From positions 1-34,164 of the forward strand of contig CAMATX010000020.1 of NCBI GenBank assembly GCA_945861345.1: a stretch of 34,164 nt of DNA, read 5' to 3'. Origin of the DNA: Comamonas sp. lk. Its GTDB lineage: Bacteria > Pseudomonadota > Gammaproteobacteria > Burkholderiales > Burkholderiaceae_C. Position numbers and translations under genes: made by a program. Shown here piece after piece: positions 3,129-13,823 of the stretch; position 1 is the first letter of the stretch; each line of letters opens with the position of its first letter. Below the pieces are notes generated by a model that ran no database searches, had not been told where the DNA came from, and saw nothing but the letters and a program-made list of their open reading frames with translations.

Positions 3129-3356
3129 ATGCCGACCTTGCAGCGTTTTCCCGATTGCCGTGTCTTGATCTACTTTGGCGACCATCCGCCCCCGTATGTG
3201 CATGTTGTCAAGGGCGATGGTCGGGACGCCATAGTGGAGATTGAAACCCTGCGCGTAATCGGTAAATTAGCAAGTAGGGAGATGCGCGAAGCGCTGCAGT
3301 GGATGGCGACGCAGCAGGCCTTTCTATTGAAAGAGTGGACGATGTACAACCCATGA
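3129..3356 (+). CDS. DUF4160 family protein, candidate toxin-like partner
   Basis: A 75-aa protein with the DUF4160 signature: a short N-terminal strand, then YFGDHPPPYVHV (residues 15-26) with His19 and His25, then a charged strand and an RE-rich helix. DUF4160 proteins are often encoded directly before a DUF2442 protein and the pair is commonly listed as toxin-antitoxin-like, but I know of no firmly established biochemical activity. Here the stop overlaps the next start in ATGA (3353-3356), showing translational coupling. The ATG lies immediately behind a -10 box, suggesting leaderless translation. Base composition is more AT-rich than in edd/eda, consistent with acquisition by transfer. 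Confidence 0.75.
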   Translation: MPTLQRFPDCRVLIYFGDHPPPYVHVVKGDGRDAIVEIETLRVIGKLASREMREALQWMATQQAFLLKEWTMYNP

Positions 3357-3838
3357 CCGACTTTTTTTCTCCCAAAATTCAATCGGTAAGCGCATTGGCA
3401 CCTCATCGCTTGCGAACCAGATGGAGCACGGGCGAAATTTTAGAAGTGGACATCACCCATGTGATGGACAGGCCAGCCTTTGCAGAAATTAAAAAGCCTG
3501 ATGTCTTTGCAAAGGTACACACCGACGGCTTGAGCATCGAATGGTTTGACACCGAGCTTGGAGCTGACAATGTGTATGCCTGGGCCAAAGAGCAGGCCGA
3601 TGAAGTCAGCCATGAAATGTTTGGCGCTTGGATGCTGCGTAATAAGTTGTCACTCTCTGGCGCAGCCGACGCCTTGGGAATCAGCCGCCGGATGGTCAGC
3701 TACTACCGAACCGCGAGCAAGGCGATTCCCAGAGCCATTTGGCTTGCCTGCCTGGGATGGGAAGTTACCCGACCAAGCTTAAAAACTTTGCCACACCGAC
3801 TCCCTTCCGCAAAGGATTACGCGCGGGCGCATGCCTAG
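3353..3838 (+). CDS. DUF2442 domain protein with C-terminal helix-turn-helix, candidate antitoxin/repressor
   Basis: A 161-aa protein. Residues about 9-80 resemble DUF2442, including a strand reading W-S-T-G-E-I-L-E-V-D and the segment HTDGLSIEW. Residues about 94-120 form a helix-turn-helix of the Cro/XRE kind (SGAADALGISRRMVSYYRT), followed by a C-terminal extension. DUF2442 proteins are often only 80-100 aa, so the fused DNA-binding domain makes this a natural autorepressor. The ATG at 3353 overlaps the DUF4160 stop by four bases; an in-frame ATG at 3299 would lie inside the preceding gene and is less likely. I infer that it binds the palindrome at 3101-3115. Alternatively it may regulate other genes and have no antitoxin role. 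Confidence 0.75.
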   Translation: MTDFFSPKIQSVSALAPHRLRTRWSTGEILEVDITHVMDRPAFAEIKKPDVFAKVHTDGLSIEWFDTELGADNVYAWAKEQADEVSHEMFGAWMLRNKLSLSGAADALGISRRMVSYYRTASKAIPRAIWLACLGWEVTRPSLKTLPHRLPSAKDYARAHA

Positions 3839-4418: not shown

Positions 4419-6467
4419 TCACAGCACCCGTGCCAGCCGCAAACCGTCCAACACCGCCGCATGCGTATTGCGCGCCGCCACCGCGTCGCCGACGCGAAAT
4501 AGCTGAAACGTTCCTGCAGGGTTGGGCCGCAAGGTTTGTGCTTGCAACGCCGTTAGCGCCGCGTAATCCGCCGCGCCCAGGTTACTGGAATGCGGTTTGA
4601 GTGCAAAGTACAAATCGTCTAGCGGTAGCGTACCGTGATTCACGATCACCTGGTCCACGATACTTTCTTTGCGCACACCGCCATAGTCGCTGCCCACGAC
4701 AGCCTTCAGGCCCTCAGCGTAGCGCTCCACCGATAGCAGCCGGAAAGTCACGGTAAATGTCACGTCGAGTTTTTGCAGGCTGCGCATATAGGGCACCAGG
4801 TTCATCGCCATGACCTCGGGCGCGAAGCTGCGGTCGGGCGTCATGATCTCCAGCCGCGCGCCGCTTTTGGCGATGATTTCGGCAGCTTGCAGTGCAGGGT
4901 GGTCGCCAGCGTCGTCAAACAGCAACACGTTTTTTCCCGGCGCCACTTCGCCACTCAGGATGTCCCAGGTGGAGACCACCAATTCGTTACCGCCTTGGAG
5001 CACCTCGGTGTGCGGCATGCCGCCGGTGGCGATGATGACGACGTCAGCTTTTTCGGCCAGGACCGTGGCTTCGTCGGCCAGGGTGTTAAAGCGGAAAATC
5101 ACGCCCCGTTCTTCGCAGCGCGCCATGCGCCAGTCGATGATGCTTAGCATTTCCCGCCGGCGTGGGCTTACCGCTGTGAGGCGGATTTGTCCGCCGGGCT
5201 TGGGCGCGGCTTCGAGTACCGTCACCGCATGCCCGCGCTCTGCGCTCACGCGCGCTGCCTCCAGACCCGCAGGCCCTGCGCCAACAATCAGCACTTTGCG
5301 TTTTGCAGGCGCGGGCTCAATCGCGTGTGGCAGCGTGAGTTCGCGCCCGGTGGACGGGTTGTGGATGCAATAGGCTTCGCCACCGGCATAAATGCGGTCC
5401 AGACAAAAGTTGCCGCCCACGCAAGGGCGGATGGTGTCTTCACGGCCTTCCATGATTTTGCGCATGATGTGCGGATCTGCCATGTGCGCGCGCGTCATGC
5501 CCACCATGTCGAGCTTGCCGCTGGCAATGGCGTGGCGCGCCGTGTTCACGTCTTGAATCTTGGCGGCGTGGAATATGGGCACGCTCACGTGATCGCGCAA
5601 GCTGCCGGCAAAGTCCAGGTGCGGCGCGCTGGCCATGCCTTGCACGGGTATCACATCGGTAAGGCCCGCATCGGTGTCGATATGGCCGCGGATGATGTTC
5701 AAAAAATCCACCATGCCCGAGTTGGCCAGGTAGCGCGCAATGCCTATGCCATCTTCCGCGCTGATGCCGCCGGGCCGCACTTCGTCGGCCACGCCGCGCA
5801 CGCCCAAAATGAACTCTGGCCCCACGCGCTTGCGTATCGCGCGCACCACTTCCATGGCAAAGCGCACTCGGTTTTCTAAAACGCCGCCAAAAGGCGCGTC
5901 TAGCGTGTTGGTGGAGGGCGACCAAAACTGGTCGATCAAATGCCCGTAGGCTTCCAGCTCCAGGCCATCGACTCCGGCAGCGTGCATGCGTTCGGCGGCG
6001 TCGGCATAGTCGCGGATGATGCGGTCGATGTCCCAGTCCTCCATCTTTTTGGGGAAGGCGCGGTGCGAGGCCTCGCGCTCGTGCGAGGGCGACACCACTG
6101 GCAGCCAGTCGGCCTTGGACCAGCTGGTGCGCCGACCCAGATGGGTAATCTGGATCATCACCGCCGCGCCATGTTCGTGGCAGGCGTCGGTCAAGTCCCG
6201 CATCCAGGGCACGACTTCGTCTTTGTAGGCCAATATGTTGTTGAACACCGGCGGGCTGTCGCGCGACACGGCTGCCGAACCGGCGGTCATGGTCAGCGCG
6301 ATACCGGCCTTGGCGCGCTCCACATGGTAGGCGCGGTACTTGGCCTTGGGCATGCCGTCTTCGGGGTAGGCCGGCTCGTGCGAGGTAATCATGAGCCGGT
6401 TTTTCAGGCGCAGATGCTTGAGCTGAAAAGGCTGAAGCAAGGGGTCTTTGGAGGCGGTGCTGTTCAT
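4419..6467 (-). CDS. NADH:flavin oxidoreductase, DgcA/StcD-like (methylamine or N-methyl amino acid demethylase family)
   Basis: A 682-aa two-part flavoprotein. Residues 1-375 form an Old Yellow Enzyme-type TIM barrel (KNRLMITSHE near the N terminus, QITHLGRR at about 106-113, VGMTRAHMADP at about 322-332). From about residue 390 there is a Rossmann FAD/NAD domain with VLIVGAGPAGLEAA. Relatives are trimethylamine and dimethylamine dehydrogenases, 2,4-dienoyl-CoA reductase, the dimethylglycine catabolism protein DgcA and the stachydrine catabolism protein StcD; length and RPCVGGNFCLDRIY fit the DgcA/StcD branch best. The iron-sulfur region has only Cys349, Cys355 and Cys367, with Gly at the expected second cysteine (352). 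It begins 22 bases after the MttB-like gene and is probably co-transcribed with it. Likely role: oxidative N-demethylation. The substrate is uncertain. Confidence 0.85.
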   Translation of the reverse strand: MNSTASKDPLLQPFQLKHLRLKNRLMITSHEPAYPEDGMPKAKYRAYHVERAKAGIALTMTAGSAAVSRDSPPVFNNILAYKDEVVPWMRDLTDACHEHGAAVMIQITHLGRRTSWSKADWLPVVSPSHEREASHRAFPKKMEDWDIDRIIRDYADAAERMHAAGVDGLELEAYGHLIDQFWSPSTNTLDAPFGGVLENRVRFAMEVVRAIRKRVGPEFILGVRGVADEVRPGGISAEDGIGIARYLANSGMVDFLNIIRGHIDTDAGLTDVIPVQGMASAPHLDFAGSLRDHVSVPIFHAAKIQDVNTARHAIASGKLDMVGMTRAHMADPHIMRKIMEGREDTIRPCVGGNFCLDRIYAGGEAYCIHNPSTGRELTLPHAIEPAPAKRKVLIVGAGPAGLEAARVSAERGHAVTVLEAAPKPGGQIRLTAVSPRRREMLSIIDWRMARCEERGVIFRFNTLADEATVLAEKADVVIIATGGMPHTEVLQGGNELVVSTWDILSGEVAPGKNVLLFDDAGDHPALQAAEIIAKSGARLEIMTPDRSFAPEVMAMNLVPYMRSLQKLDVTFTVTFRLLSVERYAEGLKAVVGSDYGGVRKESIVDQVIVNHGTLPLDDLYFALKPHSSNLGAADYAALTALQAQTLRPNPAGTFQLFRVGDAVAARNTHAAVLDGLRLARVL

Positions 6468-6489
6468 AGCGAGCTCGGTAAAAAAAGCA

Positions 6490-8061
6490 TCAATACCACT
6501 GGTCCGGCATGGACGCTTTGGTGCGGTCTATGAAGTCGCGCAGCGCTTCGTCCACCGATACATCCATGGGTGGCGCCACATATTCGGCCAGCGACTGCTT
6601 CCAGCGTTTGTTGGCGCGGGTGGCCGCATCGCTTTGGCCCGCTTCGGTCCAGGTCTCAAACGGCGTGTCGTCCGAAATGCTGGAGTCAAAAAACGCGGTG
6701 GTGTAGTTGGCCATGGTGTGCGCGCTGCCCAGGTAGTGGCCACCGGGCGTGACCCCCTGAAAAGCGCTCATGGCCAGAGAGTTTTCGTCCACGGTAACGC
6801 CGTTGACATAGCTGTGCAGCGCGCCGCAAAAATCGGCGTCCATCATGAATTTTTCATAGCTCATGGACAGGAGCCCGTCCAAAAATCCGGCCGCATGCAA
6901 GATGAAATTCGCGCCGCAATGGATGGCCGAGAGCATAGACATCACGCTCTCTTGCATGGCCTGGCCATCGGGCAGTTTGGAGGTAGTAAAAGACCCGGCG
7001 CAGCGCAGCGGCAAATTTAAGCGGCGCGCCAACTGGCCCACCACCATCGAGCCTATGGCCGGTTCGGGCGTGCCAAAGGTGGGCGAGCCCGAGCGCAGCG
7101 ACATGCTAGATAAAAAGTTGCCGTAAATCACCGGCGCGCCGGGCCGCTCCAGCTGTGTGAGCGCGCAGCCGACGATGGTCTCAGCATGCGCTTGCGCAAT
7201 CGCACCCGCATTGGTCACTGGCCCCATGGCGCCGCCCAAGATAAAGGGCACGATCACCGCCGCCTGGTTGGCGCGCGCATAGGCGCGGGCCGACTTGGTC
7301 ATGGTGCCGTCCCAGAGCAGGGGCGAATTGACGTTCACATTGCCCAAGACGACGCAGTTTTCGTCGACAAACTTTTCGCCAAACAAAATGCGGCTCATGG
7401 CAATCGAATCTTCGGCGCGCTGCTCGGAGGTGATGGAGCCCATATAGGCTTTGTCGGAATAGCGCATGTGCGAATACACCATGTCCAAGTGCCGCTTGTT
7501 CACTGGCACATCAGTGGGCTCGCACACCGTGCCGCCGCTGTGGTGCAGCCAGGGGCTGCTGTAGGCCAGCTTGATAAAGTTTTGAAAGTCCTCGATGGTG
7601 CCGTAGCGCCGCCCGCGGTCCAGGTCCATCACAAACGGCGAGCCATAGGCCGGCGAAAAAACGATGTTTTTGCCGCCAATGGGCACACTGTGCGCCGGGT
7701 TGCGCGCATGCTGGGTGAACTGGGCTGGCGCGGTTTTCAGCACCTCTTGCAAATGCCCCGGCTCAAAGCGCACCCGCATGCCGTCGACCTTGGCGCCAGA
7801 TTTTTTGAACAGCGCCAGCGCTTCATCGTCATCGCGAATGTCCAGCCCGATTTCGGCCAGGATGCGATCCGCCGTCGCTTCGATTTGGAGCAGGCTTTCT
7901 TCGCCCAGTACCTCGTAGGTGGGGATGACGCGCTTGATGTAGGCCGGGCCGGTGGGCCGGGCGTTCGGGTCGCGCCGTTCGCGCCCGCCGACGCGGCGGT
8001 TCGCTCGGGCAGGTGCCACCGCGATGGTGTCAGGCCGGTCTTGGGTATCAGATTCACTCAT
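6490..8061 (-). CDS. MttB superfamily (trimethylamine methyltransferase-like) protein without pyrrolysine
   Basis: A 523-aa protein of the trimethylamine:corrinoid methyltransferase superfamily (MttB/MtgB), a TIM barrel that moves a methyl group from a quaternary or tertiary amine to a corrinoid protein. It has an Arg-rich N terminus (RRVGGRERR) often seen in proteobacterial members, then GGTVCEPTDVP, ILGGAMGPVTNAGA and VYGNFLSSMSLRSGSP. It is open throughout with no internal TAG, so it belongs to the non-pyrrolysine branch, which includes glycine betaine, proline betaine and carnitine methyltransferases. GGAG (complement of 8071-8074) lies ten bases before the ATG. No corrinoid protein, activase or methyltetrahydrofolate partner is adjacent. 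It heads an operon with the DgcA-like gene and faces a divergent LysR gene. Confidence 0.88.
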   Translation of the reverse strand: MSESDTQDRPDTIAVAPARANRRVGGRERRDPNARPTGPAYIKRVIPTYEVLGEESLLQIEATADRILAEIGLDIRDDDEALALFKKSGAKVDGMRVRFEPGHLQEVLKTAPAQFTQHARNPAHSVPIGGKNIVFSPAYGSPFVMDLDRGRRYGTIEDFQNFIKLAYSSPWLHHSGGTVCEPTDVPVNKRHLDMVYSHMRYSDKAYMGSITSEQRAEDSIAMSRILFGEKFVDENCVVLGNVNVNSPLLWDGTMTKSARAYARANQAAVIVPFILGGAMGPVTNAGAIAQAHAETIVGCALTQLERPGAPVIYGNFLSSMSLRSGSPTFGTPEPAIGSMVVGQLARRLNLPLRCAGSFTTSKLPDGQAMQESVMSMLSAIHCGANFILHAAGFLDGLLSMSYEKFMMDADFCGALHSYVNGVTVDENSLAMSAFQGVTPGGHYLGSAHTMANYTTAFFDSSISDDTPFETWTEAGQSDAATRANKRWKQSLAEYVAPPMDVSVDEALRDFIDRTKASMPDQWY

Positions 8062-8103
8062 GCGATGGATCTCCGAAAATGCCGCTTGCCGTACAAGCTT
8101 TTG

Positions 8104-8138
8104 CTAATAATAGGGTGAAAATGCCTTTTTGTGACCCT
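8104..8138. promoter_or_regulatory. Candidate LysR operator between the MttB-like and LysR genes
   Basis: The 110-base divergent spacer contains an imperfect inverted repeat, AGGGTGA (8112-8118) and TGACCCT (8132-8138), six of seven pairs matching, with centres 20 bases apart. CTAAT (8104-8108), the short core reported for GcvA binding in E. coli, sits beside it. This is the natural place for the regulator to control both genes, but the site is inferred from symmetry only. Confidence 0.35.
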
Positions 8139-8171
8139 TTGAGCCGTTCATCCAATCCATTCATTTAATCG

Positions 8172-9095
8172 ATGCTAAAGCGCTTTGACCAGCCCGCCAT
8201 GGGCAACCTGATCACCTTCGAGGCGGCAGCCCGGACGGGTAGCTTCACCAAGGCGGCGCAGGAGCTTGCGGTCGGGCAACCCGCCGTGAGTCACGCGATT
8301 CGCTTGCTGGAGGAGGACTTGGGCGTGGTGCTGTTTGCCCGTCGTCACAAGGGTGTGGAACTCACCAATGCGGGACGCTACCTGCTTGAGCAGGTGGCTT
8401 TGGGCCTGACTTTGATTGACCAGGCCCTGCGCGAGGTGCGCAGCTTGACGCCAGGGCACCAGGTCACCTTGGCGGTTTCCACGGCGACGGCGACCTGGTG
8501 GCTGATGCCGCGCATTGCCCGCTTTAAGCAGCAGCACCCGGACATCGAGCTGCGCTGCATTACCACCGATGTCGACCTGGACCTGGAACGCGAGCGCATC
8601 GACCTGGCCATTACCTTGGGAAGTGGCGAGTTTGCGCAGCATGCACGCTGGCGTTTTGTGGACGAAGAGGTATTTGCGGTGTGCAGCCCGGCATTTTTGG
8701 CCTTGAATCACCATTTGCAAACCCCGCAAGACCTGGCTAACAGCACCTTGCTGCACTTGGAGGAGCGCTACCGCCCCCGTGTGGATTGGACTACTTGGCT
8801 GGCCCGCTTCGGTGTGAGCGCGGCACGTGCCGGGAAAGCGCTGACATTCAACGACTACTCCATTGTTCTGCAAGCGGCCCTGGAGGGGCAGGGTCTGGCG
8901 TTGGGATGGCACCATATCGTGGAGCCCTTGATCGCGCAAGGTCGTTTGGTCCGCCCGGTGCCCCAAAGCGTTAGTACCGACCAGCCCATGTATATCGTCG
9001 CTTCGCGCGCAGGCCGCGTCCGTAGTGATGTGATGGCTTTAAAAGATTGGTTGGTGCAAGAGGCCAGCGCAGCTGCTTCGCCGATTGCGCGTTAG
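8172..9095 (+). CDS. LysR-family transcriptional regulator, GcvA type
   Basis: A 307-aa regulator. Residues about 14-65 form the winged helix-turn-helix (FEAAARTGSFTKAAQELAV, then QPAVSHAIRLLEEDLGVVLF). The rest is the periplasmic-binding-protein-like effector domain with TATATWWLMPRIARF, typical of the GcvA subgroup, and DLAITLGSGEF. GcvA-type regulators control glycine cleavage, beta-lactamase and many amino acid or amine catabolic genes. It is divergent from the MttB-like/DgcA-like pair, the classic LysR arrangement, so it most likely activates that pair in response to the amine substrate or a product. The ATG at 8172 is used; a second in-frame ATG at 8199 would remove nine residues without harming the domain. 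Confidence 0.88.
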   Translation: MLKRFDQPAMGNLITFEAAARTGSFTKAAQELAVGQPAVSHAIRLLEEDLGVVLFARRHKGVELTNAGRYLLEQVALGLTLIDQALREVRSLTPGHQVTLAVSTATATWWLMPRIARFKQQHPDIELRCITTDVDLDLERERIDLAITLGSGEFAQHARWRFVDEEVFAVCSPAFLALNHHLQTPQDLANSTLLHLEERYRPRVDWTTWLARFGVSAARAGKALTFNDYSIVLQAALEGQGLALGWHHIVEPLIAQGRLVRPVPQSVSTDQPMYIVASRAGRVRSDVMALKDWLVQEASAAASPIAR

Positions 9096-12341: not shown

Positions 12342-13823
12342 TTAGCCAAAAAGAATAGCCCCATCAGGGACCCCGATCAAAGCGATTGCAGCGGTGGTAT
12401 CCGTCGCGGTAACCGCCTTGGCAATAGCCATACCGTTGGTGACTGACGCATCAGCGGTCAAATAATTCAAACCCCAGTCAATGGCTACCTTGGTGGCTAC
12501 GGTGATTTTGTTGTCCAGCAAATTGGCGACCCAGCCGTAGGTGGCGTCACCCTTATAAGTGTGTGCTGCATCCAAGATGGTTGAAACTAAGCTGCCTCGG
12601 GTTTCTTTGCCACTGCTCAGTTCGTTAGTCCAGTACTGAAGGCCGCTAGCATCCGCTCCATCTACGCGACCGAGGACATTGCGATAAACCACATTGATAA
12701 AATCTGCTGTAGTCATGTTGGATGAGAATCCAGTGAGCGAGGTGTATTGGATTCCAACGTTGTAAAAAGACTCGGCGATCTGTATTGTGCTGGCGCCCGA
12801 TTTAGATTGGCCGAGCCAATAGGCCAAGCCATCGGCATCCGGAGTGCGGTTGAAAAACGCTACGTAAAGCTCCATCACCCTTTGTACCGTAGCCGTATTC
12901 ATAGAGGACGCCATGGCTTTAATGCCGGTGGTGACATCAAAATCTGAAAAACGCAGATGCTCTATGTTTTTGACAATATCCGTTCCATCACGCCCTGTGA
13001 TGCTGTCGGTAATCGTACCGGCAGCGCCGATCATATTTACCAGGTAGCCACTCAATTTGCCTTGAAACTGCACGGTGTCGGTGCCGGCGCCACCATCAAT
13101 GGTATCGTTACCTGCGCCTCCCGCGAGCGTGTCGTTACCACTGGTGCCAGTGTAGGACCGGCCGCTAATTGTGTTTACCGTTATCGTAACGGTATTGTTG
13201 GTGTCTGCGCCGTCCGCATTGGCATTACCCGCAGCGTCGCTGAAAACACCGCTGGAAATGTTGACCACCCCGCTGGTGGTGCTGTTCACGTTCGGGGTGA
13301 AGGTGGCGGTATAGGACGTGCCGCTGCCGCCGAAGTTGGACAACGTTCCCCCGGTGACGGTCACATCAGAGGTTACAAAGTTTGTAGACACCTCACTCAA
13401 AGTGAATGTCAAGCTTGCCGTCTCTCCTGATGCCAGGCTGGACTTGCTGCTTGCGACTGCAATCGTCGGCGCTATGGTGTCGACCAATGTCACGCTTCCA
13501 CTGGAAAGCAAGTACTTCGAGTTTTCGCCTAAAAAGTAAAGGTACTCGACGTCGGAGGACACCATCGCGGTTCCGTCGGTGCCCACGAGCTGATAGCCCG
13601 TGAGCTGGCCAGTAAGAAAAAACTGGGTCTCATACAGCGCAGTGATCTTGTAATCGCTGAACTTCCCTGAAAACTGCGCGATATCAGTGCCCCGCCCGCC
13701 ATAAATGCTGTCGTTACCTCCGGCCCCGAAGATGGTGTCGTCCCCATCGCCTCCAAAAATCGACTCGGCTGCTGATGTGCCCGTCAAAAGATCATTGTTT
13801 TCGGTTCCGTTGATTTCGGCCAT
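12342..13823 (-). CDS. Secreted RTX / Ig-like / DUF4214 protein
   Basis: A 493-aa acidic protein without a Sec signal, as expected for type I secretion. Order of parts: RTX calcium-binding nonapeptides at 22-48 (GGDGDDTIF, GAGGNDSIY, GGRGTDIA); a strand unit at 50-100; a bacterial Ig-like domain at about 117-218 (APTIAVASSKSSLASG to VTITVNT); a second RTX set at 228-252; a strand unit with RDGTDIVKNIEHLRFSD; then DUF4214 at about 313-425 (MELYVAFFNRTPDADGLAYW, VYRNVLGRVDGADASGLQYW). The C terminus is uncharged and hydrophobic, typical of type I export signals. The two strand units look like divergent duplicates. No type I transporter gene is nearby. DUF4214 proteins are frequent in Comamonadaceae and are thought to be surface or extracellular; the exact role is unknown. 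Confidence 0.85.
   Translation of the reverse strand: MAEINGTENNDLLTGTSAAESIFGGDGDDTIFGAGGNDSIYGGRGTDIAQFSGKFSDYKITALYETQFFLTGQLTGYQLVGTDGTAMVSSDVEYLYFLGENSKYLLSSGSVTLVDTIAPTIAVASSKSSLASGETASLTFTLSEVSTNFVTSDVTVTGGTLSNFGGSGTSYTATFTPNVNSTTSGVVNISSGVFSDAAGNANADGADTNNTVTITVNTISGRSYTGTSGNDTLAGGAGNDTIDGGAGTDTVQFQGKLSGYLVNMIGAAGTITDSITGRDGTDIVKNIEHLRFSDFDVTTGIKAMASSMNTATVQRVMELYVAFFNRTPDADGLAYWLGQSKSGASTIQIAESFYNVGIQYTSLTGFSSNMTTADFINVVYRNVLGRVDGADASGLQYWTNELSSGKETRGSLVSTILDAAHTYKGDATYGWVANLLDNKITVATKVAIDWGLNYLTADASVTNGMAIAKAVTATDTTAAIALIGVPDGAILFG

Follow-up and report, generated by a model that had tools for sequence, protein, structure and literature searches.

Catabolism of stachydrine (proline betaine) in Sinorhizobium and Paracoccus starts with a Rieske oxygenase, Stc2/HpbB. 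In Eubacterium limosum the set MtpB-MtqC-MtqA-RamQ is described as a proline betaine:tetrahydrofolate methyltransferase in the accessible parts of two papers (PMC8604678, PMC12155760), and for marine bacteria the available part of PMC12478193 leaves the roles of further paralogues of the PF06253 (MttB) family open. Here we analyse a stretch of 34,164 nt from Comamonas sp. lk (contig CAMATX010000020.1, the window in the following), in which a non-pyrrolysine mttB-type gene and a gene for an OYE-family flavoprotein form a tight pair facing a LysR-family regulator. The evidence leans, if only somewhat, towards a two-step demethylation module for the betaine of a cyclic amino acid, most likely proline betaine. 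Substrate, activities, regulation and co-transcription of the pair are predictions. The locus consists of the following features.

4419..6467, minus strand: stcD/hpbA-type gene for an OYE-family flavoprotein of 682 aa, candidate N-methylproline demethylase (open reading frame, PF00724, homology)
6468..6489, minus strand: intergenic gap of 22 bases between the mttB-type and the flavoprotein gene, probable operon
6490..8061, minus strand: mttB-type gene, non-pyrrolysine MttB superfamily, 523 aa, predicted betaine:corrinoid protein methyltransferase (open reading frame, PF06253)
8062..8171, no strand assigned: divergent promoter region of 110 bases between the mttB-type and the LysR gene
8172..9095, plus strand: gene for a LysR-family regulator of GcvA type, 307 aa (open reading frame, HTH_1 and LysR_substrate)

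The flavoprotein carries a hint at the substrate. A Pfam scan of 11 window proteins assigns it to PF00724 (174.1 bits) with additional FAD/NAD-binding domains. Identity over 674-677 aa amounts to 72.5% with a Paracoccus protein that bears the annotation 'N-methyl-L-proline N-demethylase HpbA', 72.3% with StcD of R. etli and 70.6% with a homologue on pSymB of S. meliloti 1021. The pSymB region carries stcD, the N-methylproline demethylase of stachydrine catabolism, according to the accessible part of PMC12239276; our match in the unannotated record presumably is this gene. In contrast, identity to the OYE that we took as DgcA is only 43%. The latter belongs to a cluster in genome G038 (locus L120), in which GbcB-like, Rieske, DgcB-like (DUF3483, CCG) and OYE genes follow the gbcB-gbcA-dgcB-dgcA order, names and order being those we assume for gbcAB-dgcAB; the GbcA and GbcB models stay below their cut-offs there (471 of 670 and 389 of 500). 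DgcA is thus not the closest homologue, and no adjacent DgcB-like gene was recognised in the open reading frame lists of the window. An assignment as dimethylglycine demethylase (DgcA) was rejected on these identities. A tree built from 64 OYE proteins places that of the window, with support, among its close relatives from Comamonadaceae. Identity speaks for StcD/HpbA and not for DgcA, while one-to-one orthology is not proven by the tree. As the flavoprotein is of the N-methylproline and not of the dimethylglycine type, the odds shift from glycine betaine towards proline betaine or one of its close ring analogues. Of these, proline betaine is the simplest assumption, since the substrate given for StcD/HpbA is N-methylproline.

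The 523 aa protein matches PF06253 with 749.6 bits (cut-off 25) over positions 4-500 of the 500 of the profile, placing it in the MttB superfamily. The model of pyrrolysine MttB (NCBIfam TIGR02369) stays far below its cut-off (254.2 of 525), and the reading frame contains no internal stop or amber codon. The protein is 54% identical to 4yyc, presumably from S. meliloti, and 41% to MtgB (2qne). Homology to solved MttB structures is clear at the sequence level. The name glycine betaine methyltransferase MtgB for 2qne is given in the accessible part of PMC9842639. Phe358 aligns with the residue X of 7xcl. The same column holds Phe in all 82 window-type MttB proteins (48 betaproteobacterial-type including the window, 34 alphaproteobacterial including two plasmid copies), Leu in MtgB, 4yyc and a paralogue on contig C17, and Val in a paralogue on C55. 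We take X to be pyrrolysine. The 82 proteins are the nearest relatives found, hence shared ancestry accounts for part of this conservation. Judged by these alignments Phe358 is a marker of the subfamily; that it determines the substrate is conjecture. Both genes of the pair are under purifying selection (dN/dS about 0.04-0.14 in seven pairwise comparisons, in three of which dS exceeds 1 and the values are rough).

An earlier note on this DNA, made from the letters alone, had described the gene order with the 22-base gap and the divergent regulator, the domains of the proteins and the lack of an internal amber codon, all of which were recovered. Its label of the regulator as GcvA type fits as well, with an NCBIfam GcvA score of 266.2 bits, under the cut-off. 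Of its 'DgcA/StcD-like' flavoprotein the StcD part stands and the DgcA part falls.

For comparison we took the best 80 of 258 loci found with the MttB protein and sorted them as 48 betaproteobacterial-type and 32 alphaproteobacterial loci (L031 and L032 stem from one assembly). Pairing counts rest on tblastn and distances are spacings between tblastn matches; neighbouring genes were delimited by a codon-position rule and tblastn. Among the 47 of 48 betaproteobacterial-type loci with at least 150 nt downstream, an OYE of at least 55% identity lies on the same strand within 3.5 kb in 44 and within 350 bases in 43. Alphaproteobacterial loci show an OYE within 3.5 kb in 19 of 32 cases, 17 of these at 59-61% identity and two, both from Hoeflea (L067 and L069), at 71%; the remaining 13 have none in this range. 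Among the 80 loci the closest MttB sequences come from metagenome-assembled genomes of Comamonadaceae/Comamonas, with protein identities of 98-99% in L015 and L016. Names such as Rhodoferax lacus, Limnohabitans or Baikal suggest that these relatives live in fresh water. Taken together, the pair is a real, conserved and coherent module.

The window is contig C20 of bin G000, a 2.63-Mb draft of 129 contigs, 94.05% complete and 0.11% contaminated. Profile searches of the bin located B12-binding, RACo/RamA and pterin-binding proteins together on contig C49. On its minus strand follow genes for a GbdR-like AraC regulator (413 bits, cut-off 480), an MtgC-like corrinoid protein, DUF1638, an MTHFR C-terminal protein, MTHFR, a methyl-tetrahydrofolate:corrinoid methyltransferase (PRK07535, 364.7, cut-off 259) and a RamA-like protein truncated by the contig end. 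The corrinoid, pterin-binding and RamA-like Pfam domains expected of an MtgBCD-type set are all above cut-off. The NCBIfam models for MtgC (202.8 of 370, 172.4 of 310), RamA (98.8 of 500) and AcsV (393.4 of 800) are not reached. The set resembles the R. pomeroyi genes that are more abundant on N-osmolytes, as far as the accessible part of PMC12478193 reports. Apart from C49 the bin yields only two PF02607 matches, proteins of ~305 aa on C1 and C90, and one Pterin_bind match of 243 bits, a FolP-like 327 aa frame on C8. As these are small or FolP-like, no classical MetH is seen among the PF02607 and Pterin_bind matches of the 94%-complete bin. By analogy to R. pomeroyi the C49 core may serve methionine synthesis too.

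Further MttB paralogues are present in the bin. The one on C17 (L005, 8586-11790) is 67% identical to 4yyc and 45% to 2qne and stands divergent from an L-serine ammonia-lyase gene (694 bits, cut-off 345), with an oligopeptide-type ABC transporter nearby by reading of the neighbourhood. From these similarities and this neighbour it appears the better glycine betaine candidate of the genome. A paralogue on C55 (L006, 793-9925) is divergent from a PF12831 FAD oxidoreductase gene, with a gene of the arginase family nearby and, by reading of the neighbourhood, an ABC transporter resembling those for spermidine/putrescine. C83 starts with the C-terminal fragment of a fourth, distant MttB (L007, 1-381; 27% to the window protein) and carries a molybdopterin oxidoreductase gene further along (L007, 7623-9764).

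Bin G000 seems to include DNA of a sister species. C50 (L117, 1-3693) holds the 3' part of a second StcD-type OYE gene (95%) together with edd. At the DNA level this edd shares 96% identity with that of L022 and only 82% with edd of the window, which speaks for sister-species sequence in the bin; the OYE DNA is closest to L018 (92%). We therefore did not read the C50 OYE as a gene duplication. C127 carries another RamA piece (82% identity), which adjoins a gene above the betA cut-off and may be sister-species sequence too. With such sequence in the bin, linkage of C49 and the window in one cell rests on co-occurrence across genomes.

Co-occurrence was assessed in 120 genomes of the family (119 genera, each at least 85% complete), with cut-offs of E <=1e-195 for MttB, at least 77% identity for the OYE and E <=1e-50 for MtgC, and in 49 genomes with a window-type MttB (36 betaproteobacterial-type, 13 alphaproteobacterial). 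Each of MttB, OYE and MtgC is found in two of the 120 family genomes, in every case G000 and G078. Since G000 supplied the queries, G078 is the one independent case. The OYE search also returned three proteins at 42-45% identity. Among the 49 carriers of the window-type MttB 45 have MtgC, the copy in G155 being a fragment at a contig edge.

On this basis the following course can be proposed. The MttB-type protein would take one N-methyl group off proline betaine, which thereby becomes N-methylproline, and load it onto the Co(I) corrinoid of the MtgC-like protein from C49. From there the MtgD-like methyltransferase would hand the methyl group to tetrahydrofolate and the MetF-like protein would channel it into C1 oxidation, while the RamA-like protein, with DUF1638, would keep the corrinoid reduced. 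The flavoprotein, as its 71-73% identity to StcD/HpbA suggests, would then oxidatively strip the second methyl group to give proline. The LysR protein probably regulates the pair and the GbdR-like AraC protein the shared core, which would be common to several MttB paralogues (window, C17, C55 and the C83 fragment). The earlier note had proposed that a betaine first loses a methyl group by corrinoid-dependent transfer and is then demethylated by the flavin enzyme, and conserved pairing, C49 genes and MtgC co-occurrence support this. The note had left the methyl acceptor without a candidate; the genome search it suggested for corrinoid proteins and a RamA-like activase found both on C49, and the MtgC/MtgD-type set now fills this gap. 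A reading without any corrinoid machinery is overturned by the same genes. Its idea of an aerobic alternative to GbcAB or BHMT is already published for glycine betaine (MtgBCD, accessible part of PMC12478193), a substrate that is less likely for this pair. Overall, the earlier interpretation is partly supported.

It is possible, with the balance just short of even, that in freshwater Comamonadaceae and separately in Hoeflea the O2-dependent Rieske step of stachydrine catabolism has been replaced by the B12-dependent methyltransferase of the Phe subfamily. As Rieske query we used a protein of Rhodobacter CZR27, which is 57% identical to the Rieske protein of the Paracoccus hpb cluster. Against 3vca, which we take to be Stc2, the Paracoccus protein scores 797 bits, the CZR27 protein 540 and the L120 protein 379; the best PDB match of the CZR27 protein is 3n0q (579 bits). 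In G000 the search for a Stc2/GbcA-type Rieske protein returned only a match of 98 residues and 30.7 bits to the CZR27 query. Rieske proteins at 54-58% identity are present in nine of the 13 alphaproteobacterial carriers and in none of the 36 betaproteobacterial-type ones. In the latter group G140 and G146 have a match of 49% and six others matches of 34-37%. G140, which contains locus L040 of Rhodoferax lacus IMCC26218, has a further Rieske homologue of 41%. Rieske genes near DgcA-type OYEs give 48% (G038) and 46% (G119), close to the matches in G140 and G146. This pattern fits a replacement of Stc2 by MttB where the latter is paired with a StcD-type OYE.

Several observations weigh against the proposed substrate and against the replacement of the Rieske enzyme. 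Phylogeny confounds the Rieske pattern, and the Hoeflea genomes by themselves do not decide the matter. The nine alphaproteobacterial Rieske carriers have a 59-61% OYE (seven) or none (two) beside MttB. As they keep the Stc2-type enzyme, another betaine may be the substrate of their MttB, and perhaps also of the betaproteobacterial protein. Among the four carriers without a Rieske match of at least 54%, the two Hoeflea genomes (no match) have the 71% OYE, and G158 (34%) and G167 (no match) both have a 61% OYE; absence of the Rieske protein is hence not tied to the 71% OYE. Moreover the NCBIfam GbcA model scores L100, L102 and L120 alike (486, 489 and 471, cut-off 670), which makes the Rieske families hard to separate. 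The DgcA label of L120 is derived from gene order, and the backbone of the OYE tree gives no order among StcD, HpbA, the Comamonadaceae clades and the rhizobial 60% type.

Gene neighbourhoods and genome content add to these points. In the window, as covered by the open reading frame lists and the 11 scanned proteins, no electron transfer flavoprotein (ETF), pyrroline-5-carboxylate (P5C) reductase or betaine ABC transporter was recognised beside the pair, the scanned neighbours being edd, eda, DUF2442 and GNAT. The setting thus differs from that of HpbA (L102) and R. etli StcD (L103), which are surrounded by betaine/proline ABC transporters, P5C-reductase-like proteins and ETF. Neither a transporter nor the electron acceptor of the flavoprotein was located, no genome-wide search having been made for either. 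In Alloyangia, a 67.5%-identical OYE also lies in a neighbourhood without transporter, ETF and P5C reductase. Three betaproteobacterial-type loci (L048, L053, L057) have a different OYE of 33-34% identity in the StcD-type place. L099, one of three annotated plasmid neighbourhoods of MttB, is uninformative on the substrate. The C49 core lies on another contig of a bin that seemingly holds sister-species sequence. G117, a complete bin of the same genus, lacks MttB, OYE and MtgC, and no MtgC was detected in four of the 49 carriers (G125, G130, G146 and G151, completeness not given).

Other neighbourhoods bear on the substrate as well. In Rhodobacter CZR27 a 70%-identical MttB stands beside a Rieske oxygenase, a reductase and ProX/W/V, and the plasmid neighbourhood L101 contains racemase-family genes. 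In four loci a second type of OYE is found downstream of MttB together with an ornithine-cyclodeaminase-family (reductase-family) gene, in L048 and L053 in the usual place of the StcD-type OYE.

L030, 11570-14495, MttB strand: second OYE and reductase-family gene
L058, 13669-16601, MttB strand: second OYE and reductase-family gene
L053, 11566-14483, MttB strand: second OYE and reductase-family gene
L048, 9879-12753, MttB strand: second OYE and reductase-family gene

The reductase-family copy of L030 just exceeds the cut-off of the model for the bifunctional Delta1-pyrroline-2-carboxylate/piperideine-2-carboxylate reductase (323.5, cut-off 322), and those of L048, L053 and L058 are 59-63% identical to it. 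Pyrroline/piperideine-2-carboxylate reductase belongs to the metabolism of proline or pipecolate. The second OYE of L030 contains a CxxCxxxC motif. A C-x5-C-x11-C spacing is kept in the OYEs of the StcD, HpbA and DgcA types (window 4419-6467, L102, L103, L104, L120), which lack the second Cys of the L030 motif. Separately, L030 has a 35% Rieske homologue at 5855-7030, ~3 kb upstream of its MttB gene; it is possibly another betaine or aromatic oxygenase.

These reductase-family genes and the CZR27 neighbourhood count in favour of a ring betaine, with proline betaine as the main candidate; the reductase-family genes would also suit a ring analogue. The pair could act by the same mechanism on pipecolate betaine (homostachydrine) or hydroxyproline betaine, the flavoprotein then demethylating N-methylpipecolate or N-methylhydroxyproline. 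Also in line with this are a 62%-identical MttB in Mesorhizobium 113-3-3, which adjoins a mandelate-racemase-family gene with a proline-racemase-family gene a few kb off, and the nine of 13 alphaproteobacterial carriers that keep MttB alongside a Stc2-type Rieske protein as if for another compound. However, among named proteins the flavoprotein is closest to N-methylproline demethylases, and the scanned window neighbours include no hydroxyproline or pipecolate gene. We regard a ring analogue as unlikely, yet as the likeliest rival of proline betaine.

Glycine betaine, with MttB as its methyltransferase (MtgB) and the flavoprotein as dimethylglycine demethylase, would agree with the similarity of MttB to MtgB and 4yyc and with the GbdR-like regulator beside the C49 core. 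Yet the flavoprotein is far from DgcA-type OYEs compared with StcD/HpbA, the C17 paralogue is nearer to both 4yyc and MtgB and lies beside serine ammonia-lyase, and all window-type MttB proteins carry Phe where MtgB, 4yyc and C17 carry Leu. This makes glycine betaine distinctly improbable for the pair. Finally the two genes may be mere co-regulated neighbours, MttB handling one quaternary amine and the flavoprotein scavenging N-methylproline or similar amines from elsewhere. The 13 alphaproteobacterial loci without a nearby OYE and the R. etli stcD neighbourhood, which lacks MttB in the stretch covered, can be read this way. Against this, the two genes stand close together in 43 of 47 betaproteobacterial-type loci, and the two of 120 family genomes that have MttB are also the two that have the OYE; we consider such independence very unlikely.

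The regulator offers weak evidence on the substrate as far as its sequence goes. Its NCBIfam scores are 279.4 for the choline-sulfate regulator and, as given above, lower for GcvA, both under the cut-off. Among loci with at least 1,100 nt upstream, an opposed LysR match within 3.6 kb occurs in 26 of 42 betaproteobacterial-type loci (at least 60% identity; absent in 16) and in 26 of 31 alphaproteobacterial loci at 36-42% identity. The window protein is 34-43% identical to the LysR proteins of L100, L101 and L102 and gives no match to that of L099. An alignment of 16 divergent regions including that of the window, chosen because their LysR is at least 65% identical, shows the conserved blocks ggATGAA, AcaAa and CTA.tATc in mttB sense. 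Elsewhere in the window a DUF4160 gene (3129-3356, plus strand; 51 bits) overlaps a DUF2442 gene with a helix-turn-helix-like C-terminus (3299-3838, plus strand). By their sequences the two look like a small toxin-antitoxin pair, with a weak match to DhiA (19.6 of 200). An RTX repeat/DUF4214 protein with Big_12 is encoded at 12342-13823 on the minus strand, in a region of reduced G+C content (~50%) that lies a few kb away from the mttB-flavoprotein pair.

If the Rieske step is indeed replaced, half of the methyl carbon would go straight to methyl-tetrahydrofolate and the pathway would be able to begin without oxygen. This would add a second, chemically different route of proline betaine demethylation and connect vitamin B12 with the way a plant osmolyte is turned over in lakes. 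The pairing moreover gives one easily recognised PF06253 subfamily a specific candidate substrate, where further paralogues of aerobic proteobacteria lack an assigned one. In the open-licence literature, judged largely from the starts of abstracts, we did not find a corrinoid first step combined with a StcD-type second step, nor, by title and abstract start, a report on corrinoid demethylation of proline betaine in an aerobe.

Compared with Stc2/HpbB and StcD/HpbA of Sinorhizobium and Paracoccus, the locus shares the second step, with a flavoprotein 71-73% identical, but has a corrinoid methyltransferase in first place; the Rieske enzyme was not found in the bin, and ETF, P5C reductase and ABC transporter were not recognised beside the pair. 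The gbcAB-dgcAB system likewise demethylates a betaine in two steps ending with an OYE-family flavoprotein, but differs by its Rieske first step, its partner DgcB and an OYE only 43% identical to ours. To the Mtp system of E. limosum the locus is similar in combining an MttB-superfamily protein with a shared corrinoid protein, a tetrahydrofolate methyltransferase and an activase, several MttB proteins using one core. This likeness is one of description and not of the MtpB sequence; E. limosum is an acetogen, and the available excerpts of PMC8604678 and PMC12155760 do not mention a pairing with an N-methylproline demethylase. MtgBCD(E) of Ruegeria pomeroyi is likewise proteobacterial and B12-dependent, with PF06253 genes apart from the shared MtgC/MtgD and with MetF2, RamA and DUF1638 (accessible part of PMC12478193). 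Its substrate is glycine betaine according to the same source, whereas the partner enzyme in the window points to proline betaine. Since aerobic B12-dependent betaine demethylation is known from MtgBCD, it is the substrate assignment and the gene combination that would be new here, not the principle.

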